This document shows, in pieces, positions 2,521 through 21,447 of a DNA stretch of 64,000 bases (its first letter is position 1; every line of letters starts with the position of its first letter). Made by a program: the position numbers and the translations under genes. A model generated the notes under the pieces. The model had not been told where the DNA came from. It saw only the letters and a list, made by a program, of their open reading frames with translations, and did no database searches. The stretch comes from Nilaparvata lugens (Eukaryota; Arthropoda; Insecta; Hemiptera; Delphacidae). Location: contig NC_052507.1 in the NCBI RefSeq assembly GCF_014356525.2, positions 37,214,216 through 37,278,215 of the forward strand, read 5' to 3'.

Positions 2521-3548
2521 TGAGTTGAATTGAATTGAATTGAAAATTTCTTTATTCATCAAAATGCACAAAATACATCTGAACAGTGTCAAATTACAAA
2601 AAGAATTATTAATATCGTCACAAAATCATCCTTTACACATACAGAAGTCAAAAATTCTGATAAAAAACAAGATTCTAAAATCTTACAGTCAAATTGACAT
2701 ACTCCTGCAAAGAGTATAGAGATAGTCCCACCAAATATTCCTTTAATTTTTTTTGTAGGTATTCAACCTCCTCTATTTCTTTCAACTCTCTAGGAAGTAT
2801 ATTGAAAAATTTTCTCCCCATAAAAAGTGTTTTTTTTCTTAAAGAAATCCAATCTATGCCTCTCCTCGACCCTTCCAAATCTGGTGTTGTAGCCATGTGT
2901 TTCGTTTCTTGATCCTTGACGAGCATTTTTTAAAGTACATGACTACGTCAAAAATATATTGCCCATAGATTGTTAAAATTCCAAACTGTGGAAAAACGAG
3001 TTTTACTGAGTCTAATCTTTCTAACTTCATTATTATTCTGAGAGCTCTTTTTTGTTGTAATAGTATCTTATCAAGGTTACTCTTGGTTGTACTTCCATAG
3101 ATAGCAAGTCCGTATGCCAGATGAAAATGTATTAAAGAGTGGTACAGGGATTTCATTGTCTGTATACTGCAGATATCTGTCAATTGCCGCAAAGCAAAAA
3201 GGCCGGGGATATATTTTTTACAACCTGAGAAACATGTTTATCCCATGATAAGCTGCTATCAATATCAAGGCCTAAGAATTTTGTGCCATCCACTAGTTCT
3301 AAGGTTTCGCCATTTATTTCAACATTTGGGGACCAATGATTGATTCTTTGCCTTGTAGAAAAAGGAACTACAATAGACTTGCTGGCGTTTAAAAGAAGAT
3401 TCCTATTATTTAGAAATTTATTAATGGAATACAAGCCAACATAATAAAAACACAAATAATCAAATTGTGAGGTATAGCTTGAAAATGGCATGGAAATACC
3501 GAAACTATAGTTGATGTTGTGTTTTATATAAAAAAGTTTTGAAAACAA
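2521..3548 (-). pseudogene. 5'-truncated, frameshifted non-LTR retrotransposon (LINE)
   Basis: This lies inside the FGFR intron 2091-4393, in the gene's orientation. Three overlapping frames carry successive parts of a LINE ORF2 C-terminus. At 3180-3510 a reverse-transcriptase thumb region reads Lys-Phe-Leu-Gly-Leu-Asp-Ile-Asp followed by Ser-Trp-Asp-Lys-His. At 2854-3192 is the usual post-RT stretch, with Tyr-Gly and a Gln-Lys-Arg-Ala-Leu-Arg segment. At 2675-2926 is the C-terminal end, with Phe-Asn-Ile-Leu-Pro. The frame shifts between parts make it non-functional. The 3' end has AATAAA and a tail of repeated CAATT units at 2524-2545. The clade (Jockey or CR1-like) is a guess from the protein style. 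No 5' part is visible. Confidence 0.8.
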
Positions 3549-3604
3549 AATGGTACTATGGAATTATTTCCTATTAATTAACAAATTCACACAATACAAA
3601 AATA

Positions 3605-12010: not shown

Positions 12011-12929
12011 AAGTAAGATAAAGTTGTTTGCCAGTGGAGTAGGAGAAGAAAACGCTATCTTATGCAGAGTGATTTTTTAAGTAGTCCTGCTACCCTGTTG
12101 GTGTGGTAATTTTTTTCTAATAAAGGGGATGTTTTGTCGCACGAAGTTGATCGCCCCCTACTTAATCGGTATACACATGGCAGTAGGCCTACGCGTTGAT
12201 CAGGTATCCTTGAGCTGAGATTCTGTGTGCATTCCGTTCGTCTCATGAACAGAATGTCTTTCACCATACATGAATATGAACATGAAAATGAATATTTATT
12301 TTTAGTGAAAAGAGTAAAAACGTGTATAGTCTCAATAAAATAGAACACTTTGAGCATATATTTAAATAATCTTCAGTAAAACTAAGAAATGAGTAATAAA
12401 GTATTATAATATTATTGTATTTAACAAACATACATTTTATTTATTCAACAATGATAAACATACATAATCATGAAATGATTGGAATAAACAGGCTTAGTCT
12501 ATAGCCTTTACTATTCCATTCTCATTCTATTCTATTCCATTCACAACTGAATTTTATTTTACAAATTACATTGAAAATTGGATAACAGGGCTAAAAATCA
12601 CTCTGCATAAATGAGGTGCTTAACTTTTAAAACCCTGAACTTTCCATAACTTCTGAACTTCATACGTAAGACATTCATAGAAAATGAACATTGATTCTCT
12701 ATCTATCAACAGGAGAAAATATTTTCTAGCATTATCGTCAAAAAGTTCCATGTTTACTTTTTTCAAATACAAAAATAAAACCGGCACTTGTAAAGGCGCA
12801 AATCGAATCCTAATTTTTATCAATTGTTATAATATTGTTTCTTATAGATAATAATAAGTGTGCTAGAATAATTCTTTGGGTATTTTTGTTTGGAAATGAT
12901 ACATAAAATAAGATTGAAGAGTGAATTAC

Positions 12930-13065
12930 CTTCAACGACTTGCAGATAAGCACTGGCGTGCGTGAATCCGAGACCATTGCTCGCCACACATGTGTACCAA
13001 CCCTCGTCCTCGAATGTGATGTTGTTCAGCTGCAGAATCTCCTGGTTGTCTGCACCGTCGCTAGC
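12930..13065 (-). CDS. FGFR: FGFR Ig5 second-half exon (constant)
   Basis: Acceptor TTATTGCAG, donor GAAG|GTAATT; phase 0 in, phase 1 out. Residues 517-561 (isoform A) carry Ile-Thr-Phe-Glu-Asp-Glu-Gly-Trp-Tyr-Thr-Cys (Cys542, closing the Ig disulphide) and then Ser-Asn-Gly-Leu-Gly. It corresponds to the vertebrate IIIb/IIIc position, but I find only one copy. I searched by eye between 11299 and 12929 and between 13066 and 15578 and saw no second version. Confidence 0.95.
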
Positions 13066-15578
13066 CTGCAATAAATACCACTGTAGCTTTATGCATTCTA
13101 GTCCTTCCAATAGCACAATCAACTTGTACAATAATATGATATTAAAAGGGAAATAAGACAATTTCCACCTCAAAGATGTTGTCTTATAATATTTCAGATG
13201 ATAAGGTTATTGATTATGAGTTGGAGATAATAAAATGCATCATGCTATGATATGGTACAATAATAATCAATAATCATATAGTATTTATAATGATAATAGG
13301 TTAGTGTACTTTGTACAAGAGCTAGTAGCATTCTTGTAGATGTAGAATTTACAGTCATCGCATTAGCACTATGTTTCTCTTAACTGTAAAAAGCGACCAC
13401 TTGAGATCTTTAGCAAATGCTTGCTGCTTGCATTTACGCCTATGTAGCCTATAAATGCTTTTTAGGCCTGTGTATATGTATAAAGTTAAGAGATCTATTT
13501 AATCGATAATATTTTTGAAATGACTCTGGAATATCCATCACCGGTAGTTGGATTGTTTAAATAGCAGATTAGCTATATAGCATTTTTTGCCTTTCGATTT
13601 TTCACGCCTTTTTTGAACGGATATTCAACTTTGAGACTGATTATATTCAACAAACGTATATTTTGTCTAATACGGTAAAGCCTATTTGTTCTAGTGCAGA
13701 AATCGACAAAATTAGATTTAAAATATCGCCATTAACAATAATATTAAAAACAAAAATTACACTTGATTCCATTATCAACTTAATGCTTGAATGTGAAACG
13801 TTAGACAAGCATTCCAAACAAAACAATAATCAAGCACTCCCATTCAGATTCCTTACAAAAAACATAATTTACACGTATTATTATCAATGCTTTAAAATTG
13901 GTTAGTATAATCACACAACTATGATGATACCCCGTTCTTTACTTTGTAGTAGCCTATACGGTAATGTTGAAAATTTGTACAAAATTTCATTTTTTCAGCT
14001 TGCAATCATTCAAAATACTGTACCCTTCATTGATGAACTATATATATTCTACTTAGATAGTTTGGTAAAAAGTTTTCTACTGATTGATAACAATAATTTC
14101 ATTTTATAATTGAGAAAAACTACTGGAACGGTACTGGATTAGTTATGCATTAGTCATTTATGAATAATGATTGAGATATTCATCGATAGGAAGTGTAATA
14201 CTAATAATTACGGTAGCGGTTATTAGTGATAAAGAAAATGTTGAGCGATGATCAATGAATTAATATTTTGATGATTGATTGTTAACAATGAATGACTATT
14301 ACTGATTATACTAGAGGAATGAATATACAGTGCAAGATTAGTGAATTATCAAGTTAGTATGAATGGCATTATCTTCAAAAAATCTAATTCTACAAAAACA
14401 TTCTTCTATAAAAACTGACAATGATAATAATTTATTAGCATTCCTATACTTCAATTGTTTGTCCTGAATGACAAATAGAATCATCAAACATACAGGACAT
14501 TTTGTTTGTTACGGTACCGTACTTTTCATACTCACATGATCTGTGTGTTTTGGAGTTACCGTAAACTGACTTGCGGAAGAAATTAAATATAGCTTTTGTA
14601 AAGATAAAGAAATATATTATTCAATTAATGAATATAAAAAACTGTGAATTTGATTGTCCACTTGATTTCGAGAGTCCAGTTTAGAATAAGTTCAACGGAA
14701 TTCAAAAGTGTCAAATCAGGGAGTAGCCTAACACAGATGACATTAATAATAGCCTAAGTGACAAAATTATCCTCATGATAATGACTGCATGTCTGTAAAG
14801 GAATGAAAAGTGAAATGTGCAATTTTCATAAGAGATATAATAACGTTTTCAAAGTAGAAACTATTCTACCCTCAAAATGCAAGTTTGAGAACACTTTTTT
14901 ACCGTTCATTGAGTCACTTGATTCCATCATTAATGTCACTTGATTCCATCATATTAAGTTAACGGTATATTGGAAGCCAATAGACTTGAGTAAATTTACA
15001 AAAGAATACCGTAATGTAGCAACAGAATAAATATCAATGTAATTGTTCAATTGAATAAGTAGTTGTTCAAATGAGTGTTCAGTTTCATTAAACCCTATAA
15101 ATAGATGCAAAAAAGAGAATAATGTAAAAAAATCGTATATAGTAGAGACACTATACGGAAGCTATGGTATCTATTGAGCTCGCTTTCAAAGTGTAGTTAG
15201 GTTTGTGGCCTATATTTATATAGAAACAAAAATTATCATGAACCTAACCAGCTCCGCAGCATGTGGCAGTGTCCATATCATATCCAAGAACACATAGTTC
15301 ACTTTCAAAAATGTTTCAAATTTCAGAATTGTGAGGGGAATAGACGAGTAGAGAGCATGCGCTCCACGTCTCTTGCAATCTGTTCTCTACTAACAGACAG
15401 GGCAGCCAATCAAACCTATTTTCTTGACTGAACAATCTTCACCAAAAATCATCCTGAACACATCGGTTAGTTGAATAAACTCACAATTCAGTTAAAGTCG
15501 TCAGACAGGCAGTGAGACGAGCATCGGTAGTAGCAGGTAGCAACGTGCAATCCCCAATCGTTCACATGCAATTTATAC

Positions 15579-15751
15579 CTTCACCGAGCTATTAGAGCTT
15601 GTGTCATTGACGTTGGTGACTTGGCCCTTAAACCAGCCGATGTGCGGATGCAAGTCTGAAAGTATTTTGCACTTGAATGTGGCGTTCGAGCCCACCACCA
15701 TTGTGCTGTTCTGGGGTGCCTCCGTCAGAATCGGACTGTGGTGCAGACGCT
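15579..15751 (-). CDS. FGFR: FGFR Ig5 first-half exon, variant C
   Basis: 173 nt, acceptor CACATCCAG, donor AAG|GTATAA; phase 1 in, phase 0 out. It encodes about 58 residues starting Glu-Arg-Leu-His-His-Ser-Pro-Ile. It has the first Ig cysteine in Thr-Phe-Lys-Cys-Lys and Ser-Asp-Leu-His-Pro-His-Ile-Gly-Trp. Of the three variants this most resembles the canonical vertebrate D3 first half (Ser-Asp-x-x-Pro-His-Ile-x-Trp). Several Asn-x-Ser/Thr glycosylation sites are present. Its 3n+2 length means it can substitute for A or B but not be added to one of them. Confidence 0.93.
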
Positions 15752-18149
15752 CTGGATGTGCCAAAACATATAACATTAATAATAGAACAAAACATTGTGA
15801 ATGAGCAGGATACAGCACATCACTGCAACCACACCAAATTACCTAAGCTAGAGAAACATAATAGCACGATTTAATATTAAATAACAGACACATGTATCTG
15901 CTGGATATGAATTATACAAGTGATGGAATACGACACCACACCACATATAAACTTAGATTATACAATGTACATAGAAGTGTAAATATATACAAGAGAGGGA
16001 GTACACAACAAATAGCGCACATAATAGCATAAATAAATAAAATACTGTGTACAGAATGTTCAAGAGAAAATGGATACTTATACTTTCTTCATGAAGGAGG
16101 ATCATAATAAGGGGAGATTTGATGAGCCTGAGCTGAGCTTAATGTGCTGTTGCTATACTTTAAATTTAAGGCTCAAAAATTTTAGAGAACACATCGTGTT
16201 TAAGAATAGGTGAAGAATTTAATGTAGAGAACGTTGGTTTCTGGAAAAGAGTTCATTTACGAAAGATATAAAGAATCATATTTCTGAGTTTTCCTTGTAG
16301 AATCACTTCAATTTGAAATTCATATCTGCATTTTTAGGGAGTTTTATAGGAGGAATATGAATAAGTTGAAGATTTTATTCAATGGTTTAGAATAGATTAT
16401 AATCACATTCAATCTCCCATATTACATTTTCAAATATAATTGGTGCAATTAGTTGAGGATTGATAAAATATTGTAGAACAAAATTTTAAATAAATTTTAG
16501 TAAACTCCTTTCGAAACACAACATTCTGGTATAATTTGAGAAACTCATTGCAAAAATAAATGTTGTAATATCGGCAATGGTGGGTAAATTGAGAACTCAA
16601 TAATGTTGATGATAAATACATTCTGGAATTCAAAATATACTATATTAGATCGATCAACTGCAGAAATGAAAAACTTCATCATCGAATACAGATAAATATC
16701 AATTAGAAAAAATACAATTGAAAAAAAATTAAAATAAAAAATAAACAAAGTTGGCTATCAACCGTTTAAACTACATGTCATTTCTCACAATATATAAAAA
16801 ATTACATTATGTAAGTGGGAAAATTTTGAGAGAAATAAAATAGAGGGTAGGCTACTTTGATTTTCTTTCGATTTTCACATGAATATGAGTAGCCGTTACA
16901 AAGAAAGTAAAAATTGAAAAAATCAGTATTGCGGTCTACTTATTAATTCATGAAAAAAATATGGGGATATGGTTGATGGATCTGTAGTTTACTTTCATAT
17001 CAAGAAAATACTATTGTACTATGGTAGTATCAGATTTCGTTTTTTCATAAAAATTAATTTATACAGTTTTTATCTATTTTTGCAGGAAATTATTTTTTTA
17101 AGATACTTGATAATCAAGTGAGGTTTTATTAATTAATATGTTCTTTTCCATCCCCATTCATTCTCTGTGTTTCTATTTATATCCCTAAAGAACATTTATT
17201 ACACTATTTCTCAGTGAAAATAGTCTATATAGATTCAGTTGACAATGTAAAAGCTTCAAAATTTTTCAGGTACGGTAACAAGCCATCAAGACAATATTAG
17301 CCAATGTCTAGTTGCAATATGAATTCTCCACCATTATTCCCACAATATTTTGTTCCTTGAAAATTCTGTACACAGCTGCAATAGGAATTAATTCAACCAC
17401 CTTATAATAGTGTGACGATTAACAACCACCATTTACATCTCACCCGTAACCTTTATGAATAGCATTCAGTCTTAAGAGGGGATTTATCTGAAATTGATTC
17501 ACTTGGCTACTTCTCAGAAAGTTATAAGTATAATTCATAAATATAAATCGTTTACAAAATAACCATTTCATGGTACAAAAAAAAAAATGATCAAACATCT
17601 CAATACAAGGACTCCCATCCAAAGTCAATGGTTTTTCTCGTAATCAAACCATAGAAAGCCAGTGCTTTAGATATAGTGACATGGATGCAAAGCTACCGTG
17701 CAGTGTTACAGACTCAGATTACAGATAGAGAGACAGCTGGAAAAACTGACTTATTTCAAGATTGGCTGTACGAGGTAGTTCAATGCTCCCAATCACAACA
17801 CTTGAAAAAATCAGAAATCTATCGCGGCAAACTATTTATAGAATTTGCTCTGGTTTCAGCCTCAAGGATTTAAAAATATTGTTTTTATCATTTGATTTTT
17901 GTGAACAATCAATATTTCAAACCAATGTATAACACTGCATTCTTTCATATTAGAAACAACGGAAACTAGAAGAAAATGTTAATCGAATAAAGCTATGTGA
18001 TTGGTCAATATATTACTATATTTTTCCCGTAATGGTTGACCTTTAATTATCATGTAACTATCACCTACAAACCGTAATTTCTCTATCTGCAATCTGTGCT
18101 TATGAAAGCCTGAGCCCTGACCCACGATCATGTTGCAAAATACGCGTAC

Positions 18150-18349
18150 CTTAATGACGGTACCATTGAGATAGTCAGGGTAGTCACCCTCCTCGAGAGG
18201 TTTACTGTGTTTCAGCCACTGAAAGTGATCATGACTAGTTTTGTCCGGGAAAGTAACCGGACATTCGAAATGCACCGAGGCAGAGTTGATGAGTGCGGTC
18301 ACATTGCGTGGGAATCCCTCCTTCACATAGGGGATGTGGGGACGTCTGC
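18150..18349 (-). CDS. FGFR: FGFR Ig5 first-half exon, variant B
   Basis: 200 nt, acceptor ATACAAACAG, donor AAG|GTACGC; phase 1 in, phase 0 out. It encodes about 67 residues starting Gly-Arg-Arg-Pro-His-Ile-Pro-Tyr, with Phe-Glu-Cys and Phe-Gln-Trp-Leu-Lys-His at the Ig core positions. It is the longest variant, with extra residues between the cysteine and the tryptophan (a Thr-Ser-His-Asp insertion). It is strongly diverged from A and C but matches their domain position and splice phases. Confidence 0.92.
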
Positions 18350-19009
18350 CTGTTTGTATTAACAAGCAATAAGTTCCAAATTGGAAATAATGGTAGAGAT
18401 AGTGTTTTAATTAAATTCTAAAAAAGCAAAAATTCTTATCCCGTCACAAATTAATCATAATATGGTTCACATATTCGATAAAATGTGAGGGTGATATTTT
18501 TATTCTAATTTGATTCATTTCACTACACAAAGTTGCTGCATATACTATTAATGAGTATATACCTCATATTCATAGCAGTCGCCTTAGCTTAATGGATATA
18601 CAAACAACAAGAGAAAAAATATCTTCATCCTGAGCTGGTTAATTCCTGTTACATTCATATGTTTAAATAACTTAAACTGCTTTAAAGGTCCGAATTTTTC
18701 CGCACAAGAATTATAGTATACAGGCTTCATTACAGCAGTGGGGTAACAAGTTTGTTAAATGATTCAAGGGTTTACAAAGTCCCATTCCTGAATTTGGATA
18801 TCATTTATATTGGTGATTCTTATTTCAAAGTCAACGCCAACGATATTTGCGACAAGCGTCTATATCTGCTACAAATGTTTCCATCTAATAATAAATCTCA
18901 ATTTTTATCGAGTATCTTTGTAAGTAACTTTTTGGAAATATAAAGCAAGTGTATCAATTTCATGATAAATCCGTCTTGAGGTGACTTGCACAGGTGCGGT
19001 AACGGGTAC

Positions 19010-19194
19010 CTTGAGTTTAATGCCCTGAGGATAGAGGTTGTCGGAGGGGGGTGGGGGTTGCGACACCCTCATCCACACAATGAATGGCTCCAGGTCGGAA
19101 ACGGGGTTGCACCGCAGAGTCACATTCGATGACACTAGTGACGTCACGTTTTCCACTGTGCCGTCGGGAATGAACGGCTTATGTGGGTAGCGTT
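19010..19194 (-). CDS. FGFR: FGFR Ig5 first-half exon, variant A
   Basis: 185 nt, acceptor TTACACACAG, donor AAG|GTACCC; phase 1 in, phase 0 out. It encodes residues 455-516, starting Glu-Arg-Tyr-Pro-His-Lys-Pro-Phe-Ile, with Cys483 in Thr-Leu-Arg-Cys and Trp495 in Phe-Ile-Val-Trp. A proline run (four consecutive Pro) follows, and the exon ends Ile-Lys-Leu-Lys. The donor lacks the usual +4 to +6 bases, as in variants B and C, which fits regulated splicing. Confidence 0.92.
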
Positions 19195-19942
19195 CTGTGT
19201 GTAACATATCACTTATTCATCAATTTCGATCTCCTTTGACTTGGGGTTTTCTTGTAAACCTGATTGATGACTATCTGTTATTATGAATTTCAAACACATT
19301 TTGAATGATTTTTTCTATGCTTTCAAGTCTAATGTATCATATTATGACCCTCTTGAATCATCAAGTGGATTCCTCTTCTGAAATGAGATGAATTAATAAT
19401 GTTTGACTTGTAAACCCAGAATAACCAATAAAGCTGCAAATATTCTCACAGTAATTACAGAGTTTCTGTTAGGCTTGATAATGAGCGAAACCAGCACGAA
19501 CTTTGTCGCCACTATTAAACGTAATTGTTTTCACATAAAATCATTTTCATGATGTCTTATAGCAATTAATTACAGTCTTGATAAAATTTGTTGAATGAGA
19601 ATTGATATTGTGGAATTTTTCCATAATTGAAAAAGCACAGTTTTATTTTTATAAATTTGGATGTGACAAGATAAAACTGTGTTTTCTTAATTACAGTCTT
19701 TTTTGCTTGCGTATCATAATATATTAAGAATATGATAATCTCAGTGGAGTTTACCATCCGGATGATCTATTTTTTCATAAACAATTATTTTATAATATCT
19801 AATCACAATACTCATATATAGTCTTGGTAAATTACACGTAATAAATAAGCCTATACTGTATCTGGGAATACATAAATTACATAATTATAAAATAATATTC
19901 ATTGTACTGAAAAAGAAAACAGATTGGAGTGAACTGTCTCAC

Positions 19943-20131
19943 CGATGATGTCGACTTGAAAGGAGAAGTCGATGCAGCCGAGACTGTTGCAGACAATGCA
20001 CGTGTAGTTGCCGGAGTCGGTGGTGACCAGATCTTCGAGTGTGATGGACCATTGTCTGTAGAGGATGTTGCCCAGCGCCCGTTCGGGAGGTTGCCCATTT
20101 TTCAGCCAAGTTATGTTCGGGTATGGATTTC
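19943..20131 (-). CDS. FGFR: FGFR Ig4 second-half exon
   Basis: Acceptor TTGTTATAG, donor ATCG|GTGAGA; phase 1 in and out. Residues 392-454 contain Gly-Asn-Pro-Tyr-Pro-Asn-Ile-Thr-Trp-Leu-Lys-Asn-Gly, very close to vertebrate FGFR D2, and Asp-Ser-Gly-Asn-Tyr-Thr-Cys (Cys436). Two additional cysteines, 439 and 444, follow within eight residues of the disulphide cysteine, which is unusual. This exon feeds the three alternative Ig5 exons. Confidence 0.96.
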
Positions 20132-21007: not shown

Positions 21008-21169
21008 CTTCAGAAGGACACTTCAAACGAAACATATTTCCAGCCGGTTTAGCAACGATTCGATGCATCTGCTTCCTGGCGGTAAAGCGAGGAGGAGTCA
21101 GCTTCTCGGTGCTGTTCAAAGATCCGACCGTTCGTCTCTCGGATCCTGTAGTTTCATCGAAATCCAAAT
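21008..21169 (-). CDS. FGFR: FGFR linker and Ig4 first-half exon
   Basis: Acceptor GATTCCAG, donor GAAG|GTTAGG; phase 1 in and out. Residues 338-391 start with a small acidic patch (Asp-Leu-Asp-Phe-Asp-Glu). Then comes Pro-Pro-Arg-Phe-Thr-Ala-Arg-Lys-Gln-Met-His-Arg, matching the heparin-contact start of vertebrate D2, and Phe-Arg-Leu-Lys-Cys-Pro-Ser (Cys388). Heparan-sulphate binding is inferred from the family. Confidence 0.95.
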
Positions 21170-21272
21170 CTGGAATCGAATCACAAATATCTGAAATTCC
21201 ATTCCAAGCTTCAATATTGTAAAGCTAAAAGCCTATCAATAAGCCTAATCCAATGTAAAATAAAAATCACTA

Positions 21273-21447
21273 AAGGCTCAACTCACACTTACGCGACTCA
21301 GGTCGAGAAGAGACTCGACTCTAGTCGAGAGCATGTGCTTCCAAATTGTGACACTCAGACCAGTCGATTCTAGTCACCATTTGAAAACACATGCTCTCGA
21401 ATAGAGTCGAGCCTCTACCTGAGTCGCGAAAGTGTGAGTTGAGCCTT
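21273..21447. mobile_element. Foldback MITE
   Basis: 175 bp inverted repeat. The arms (about 70 bp) start AAGGCTCAACTCACACTT and continue GCGACTCAGGT and GAGAGCATGTG. They are GC-richer than the intron around them (21170-21957). No clear target duplication; no coding capacity. Confidence 0.8.

Follow-up and report, generated by a model that had tools for sequence, protein, structure and literature searches.

In the planthopper Nilaparvata lugens, exon IIIa of the FGF receptor (FGFR) gene exists as three tandem copies, A, B and C, that are quite probably spliced singly and would give receptors of differing ligand preference, C belonging to class 1 of the insect IIIa exons and A and B being diverged members of class 2. 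What is new in this arrangement is the addition of a third exon, by which one of two old classes comes to be represented twice. The gene lies in a stretch of 64,000 nucleotides of contig NC_052507.1 (positions 37,214,216 to 37,278,215), here called the window, whose own numbering is used for all coordinates.

A complete FGF receptor coding sequence runs on the reverse strand from 28703 to 456, and its gene model comprises five Ig domains, a transmembrane exon and a tyrosine kinase. The constant upstream exons encode the signal peptide (28703-28616), Ig1 to Ig3 (26327-26198, 25013-24709, 24009-23842, 23344-23157, and 22090-21958), the acidic linker with the first half of D2 (21008-21169, with an alternative acceptor at 21190), and the second half of D2, or Ig4 (19943-20131), which directly precedes A, B and C. 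Downstream, and on the same strand, the constant exons encode the second half of D3, or Ig5, equivalent to vertebrate IIIb/IIIc (12930-13065), the transmembrane (11298-11172) and juxtamembrane (10150-10033) segments, the kinase (8584-8356, 6374-6055, 4587-4394, 2090-1950, and 962-857), and the tail with the stop (548-456). With exon B, the 21169 acceptor and the tail exon, the model reproduces letter for letter all 1008 residues of the N. lugens protein P0008 ("FGFR homolog 1 isoform X3"), and the frame stays just as open when exon A (1003 residues) or exon C (999 residues) is used instead. The two acceptors of the first D2 exon, 21190 and 21169, are 21 nt apart, and both P0008 and the Laodelphax protein P0005 fit the latter. 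A D3 query against the species' own genome returned seven matches, two of them the window's own and the other five 27-38% identical, and this D3 search suggests one FGFR gene in the N. lugens genome. The same query finds no duplicate of the second half of D3 above 38% identity in the genome, that is, no pair of the vertebrate IIIb/IIIc type, and within the gene this half is present once and constant.

Several other features were observed along the gene. Tandem acceptors precede the second D3 exon on the reverse strand (CTACAG at 13081 versus 13066), and choice of the upstream one would add 15 nt (13080-13066), or the five residues WYLLQ. At this position the exon C-type protein P0005 of Laodelphax reads WYSLQ, and the upstream choice may go together with exon C. 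The intron before D2 contains, at 21273-21447, an inverted repeat whose 52-nt arms are 83% complementary; it resembles a small inverted-repeat transposon. A tRNA-like stretch at about 20430-20370 on the reverse strand, with the B-box-like GGTTCGAGACC, is perhaps a tRNA-derived SINE; ARAGORN reports no tRNA in the window. Finally, the intron between two kinase exons contains open frames at 2854-3563 on the reverse strand, which we take to resemble LINE reverse transcriptase.

All three exons lie on the reverse strand, A at 19010-19194 (185 nt), B at 18150-18349 (200 nt) and C at 15579-15751 (173 nt), and each encodes the same half-domain, running from the D2-D3 linker through the first disulphide Cys to the core Trp of D3. 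Their lengths are all 3n+2; entry is in phase 1, following the G at 19943, and exit in phase 0, into 13065. The first-pass annotation had given the exons these places, lengths and phases, which are reproduced within the intact receptor gene. It had also claimed that exactly one of the three fits the message, and the frame test bears this out: the single inclusions stay open (3/3), while skipping, the three pairs and the triple all run into stops (5/5) and terminate soon after D2. Pillmann et al. 2011 (PMC3228551) name similar length, compatible splice sites and frame, homology, and one exon per message as constraints on mutually exclusive exon clusters, and the present exons were compared with these. 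Their lengths are much alike, and all are bounded by AG...GT with the shared phases, the donors being AAG/GTACCC (A), AAG/GTACGC (B) and AAG/GTATAA (C) and the acceptors all CAG. Homology is seen in the residue identities (A-B 21/60, A-C 20/58, B-C 16/58) and in profile matches. As for one exon per message, a single exon fits the frame, and P0008 contains B alone and P0005 contains C alone.

The identity of the half-domain, also proposed from the first inspection, is confirmed by comparison with known structures. When D2-D3 of each isoform is searched against the PDB, the best matches are FGFR chains (E 2.4e-44 for A, 6.4e-43 for B, and 4.9e-45 for C). By their alignments to FGFR1 and FGFR3 chains, A, B and C are homologues of vertebrate exon IIIa, each directly before the constant IIIb/IIIc homologue. 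The linker motif, ERSPHRP in human, reads ERYPHKP in A, GRRPHIP in B and ERLHHSP in C. The linker Arg is common to the three, and the next two positions, which we take to be the Apert positions of FGFR2, are Y-P in A, R-P in B and L-H in C. In a comparison with 67 further class 2 segments, 14/20 of the positions conserved ahead of the Cys are retained in A and 15/20 in B. Of those in the Cys-to-Trp stretch, A retains 7/9 and B only 3/9, with three residues added, so that this part of exon B reads as rebuilt. In FGF-FGFR structures, the Cys-to-Trp loop and the linker face the ligand. A structure prediction for P0008 (mean pLDDT 65.6, pTM 0.34, with about 62-84 per ten residues in the exon B region) is too weak for statements on the interface.

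A hidden fourth exon was considered and ruled out. In the 7.4 kb from 12500 to 19942, the only phase-matched AG...GT stretches with a Cys-x(9-19)-Trp pattern are A, B and C, and a six-frame search of the window with three profiles yields no fourth copy. The mixed profile, which was seeded with the three exons themselves, scores A at 96.7, C at 94.1 and B at 85.7 bits, the next match being the first half of the gene's own Ig3 at 15.6 bits. The class 1 profile contained P0005 and the class 2 profile P0008, so that neither C nor B tests them independently; A was in neither seed, and the class 2 profile gives it 72.0 bits. A genome search with exon A recovers the exon in full at one place, in the window, and the only further match is weak (40%, E 0.017) and corresponds to exon C.

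The relatives of these exons were collected in three protein searches (the best 120 of 247, 120 of 190, and 120 of 219 matches), giving 172 distinct proteins. The filter applied to these 172 listed proteins retained 141 whose D3 first half has the expected surroundings: 64 with class 1 only, 55 with class 2 only, 13 with both, and nine unclear. Among the 13 with both, three are false (P0009, P0010 and P0154, whose class 1-like match is the upstream Ig3 domain) and two irregular, P0001 having each class in a separate D2-D3 unit and P0006 an irregular repeat. The remaining eight place class 2 directly before class 1 in one D3, the order found in N. lugens; they come from Diaphorina, Hetaerina, two Vespula, Acromyrmex, Zootermopsis, Microctonus and Temnothorax. 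These models look like annotations that join two exclusive exons, and would as such display the pair and its order; in several two-exon models of other insects, odd residues are inserted where the exons meet. At least nine species, such as Camponotus, Vespula pensylvanica, Melanaphis and Diprion, have isoforms of both classes under separate names. If an insect tandem is defined, as here, by one class 2 and one class 1 exon, N. lugens has one, with class 2 present twice. For exon C, the decay in an orthologue that would have spoken against the first-pass annotation is not seen in Laodelphax, whose P0005 is identical to it at 56 of 58 residues.

Trees were built from rows picked by hand among the retrieved proteins (69, 36 and 50 rows), with about 60 columns, a length at which the finer forks are unsafe. 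The 69-row tree separates class 1 (27 rows, including C; support 96/84) from class 2 (39 rows, including A and B; 98/91), and the 36-row tree supports the same classes at 97/92 and 97/89, respectively. In the latter, a topology that forces B into a group with C and its Laodelphax counterpart is rejected (p 0.007), and one that forces A and B together is not (p-AU 0.077); A and B are unjoined in the free trees. The 50-row tree includes flies, and there the records named breathless or FGFR homolog 2 group with class 2 (81/95). According to these trees the insect IIIa exons form two old classes, with C in class 1 and A and B in class 2 together with dipteran breathless, and the split extends from dragonflies to wasps. 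The fly receptor breathless, of class 2 only, may be a frozen isoform of the switch. No protein named heartless is among the matches listed. Mosquito FGFR records fall in both classes (P0093 and P0096 in class 1; P0092, P0094 and P0105 in class 2), besides dipteran rows of the P0064 type.

Two of the proteins set aside above deserve a separate mention. In P0009 (residues 284-339) and in P0010 from the termite Cryptotermes (residues 289-341), the upstream Ig3 has a first half similar to class 1 IIIa exons, and this similarity hints that Ig2-Ig3 arose by copying of D2-D3. In P0006 from the mayfly Ephemera danica, residues 686-944 hold IIIa-type segments in the order 2-1-2-1 as nearly identical pairs, which could be either a recent duplication or an assembly duplicate.

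Another reading of the locus, which we consider rather unlikely, is that splicing follows just the two-way switch already described, in which C alternates with a single class 2 exon, and that the other class 2 copy, most likely A, is silent or rarely used. Exon A is carried by no protein among the 172 listed, where isoforms more than 90% alike share one database entry, so that its absence weighs little; it also has the lowest donor score of the three, and it forms the longest branch among the window's exons in two of the three trees. Set against this, exon A is open and retains both phases, the splice dinucleotides, the Cys, the Trp and the 14 class 2 positions ahead of the Cys. A crude simulation of neutral drift with indels (4000 runs), moreover, leaves an A-like exon intact in 2.3% of cases by 70% identity and in 0.35% by 60%. 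When indels are left out, the same simulation keeps it intact in 17% and 7.6%, so that the argument against free decay of exon A is a moderate one.

Under the preferred reading, in which all three exons are spliced singly, the question is what enforces the choice. The first-pass annotation had described the splice sites as weak, which stands for the averages, to a modest degree, and fails for the donor of B. The match of the donors to CAGGTRAGT averages 5.3/9 for A, B and C (n=3) against 6.4 (n=16; p=0.02), both samples being very small. With log-odds, from a matrix entered by hand, the difference has p=0.08, donor B is not weak, and donor A is the lowest of the three. The pyrimidine content of the acceptors is 0.52 (n=3) against 0.69 (n=16; p=0.007), or against 0.67 in an n=15 set (p=0.02) from which the larger one differs by one corrected acceptor and the added last exon, the samples again being very small. 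Steric exclusion is dismissed on the length of the introns between the exons, 660 nt (A-B) and 2,398 nt (B-C), which are too long for it. Mixed U2/U12 sites are likewise rejected: the flanking introns are GT-AG, and the U12 donor consensus is absent by eye.

It is improbable, in our estimation, that exclusivity is imposed by competing RNA pairing through docking and selector sites, as in Dscam exon 6, and not by trans-acting factors. One of 12 region pairs reaches z = -2.06, and three 17-nt inverted repeats are present against 0 to 3 in 12 shuffles, but such signals are within chance for 12 tests, and no site complementary to the flanks of all three exons is seen in this one sequence. The window sequence thus offers nothing beyond chance as an exclusivity-enforcing RNA structure. 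Given the weak sites, a spacing that excludes steric exclusion and the lack of a pairing structure, trans-acting factors are the likely basis of the choice, and would act by regulated recognition of rather weak splice sites. Wrong exon combinations would shift the frame and be lost to decay. Still less credible is that the exons are not strictly exclusive and that messages with none or several are made purposely, as a means of reducing receptor levels or of producing truncated, secreted forms, for while such messages end soon after D2 and the frame of exon A extends into its own intron to 18905, P0008 and P0005 have one exon apiece and the two-exon genome-derived models elsewhere, several with those odd residues, are read as annotation error.

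A possible site of action for such factors lies next to exon C. The Fox-type motif TGCATG occurs at 15565-15570 on the reverse strand, 9 nt past the end of the exon, and from 20131 to 12930 that strand has no other copy. The scan covered 11 motifs, and the window has no excess of this one on the two strands together (33 found against 33.07 expected), so as a Fox-family control site it is a lead only. In FGFR2 switching, Fox proteins are described as acting via UGCAUG (PMC2880598).

As to function, all three exons are presumably used in messages, and each would give the receptor a different linker and D3 surface, and hence a different FGF preference. Exon C could be the form for FGF8-type ligands; A and B could both be suited to Branchless-type ligands, or to a single one of them in separate tissues. 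We would suggest, tentatively, that by this three-way switch the single FGFR might do the work of more than the two receptors of the fly. In this view C would be used for FGF8-type ligands, the Branchless-type exon would have become two, A and B, and the changed linker and rebuilt Cys-to-Trp stretch of B would confer a third ligand or co-receptor specificity, with its own tissue control. A linker of the A/B/C type holds the positions that are mutated in the human Apert and Pfeiffer syndromes, and the three exons for this reason amount to a natural exchange series at a hinge known for specificity. With the two-class split it also becomes testable whether the two receptors of the fly derive, as frozen isoforms, from a single ancestral switch, and whether a third setting was added in planthoppers by exon duplication.

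Splicing in this region of FGFR was reportedly described in the beetle Tribolium by Sharma et al. 2015. The first-pass annotation had seen in the switch of the D3 first half a new way of altering the receptor, a claim that has to be withdrawn for the two-version form, as Burguera et al. 2017 (PMC5703972) already report a mutually exclusive event at insect FGFR exon IIIa. A three-way insect IIIa switch, or an FGFR switch in planthoppers, was not found among the listings of searches in open-access literature. Arrays of the Dscam type likewise consist of tandem exclusive exons for half an Ig domain; N. lugens has only three copies, and no docking-selector pairing stood out in its sequence. Exons 5A and 5B of C. 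elegans egl-15 are exclusive exons in an FGFR ectodomain too, placed between Ig1 and Ig2 and not in D3. The choice between them is under Fox-family control. Vertebrate FGFR1-3 also have exclusive exons within D3, IIIb and IIIc, and according to PMC5703972 and PMC2880598 that switch changes ligand preference; it exchanges the second half of the domain, whereas N. lugens exchanges the first and keeps the second (13065-12930) constant. The closest counterpart is the insect IIIa switch itself, with which N. lugens shares the gene, the half-domain and the class 2 to class 1 order of the eight other insect models, and from which it differs in having three exons, with class 2 present twice, as A and B.
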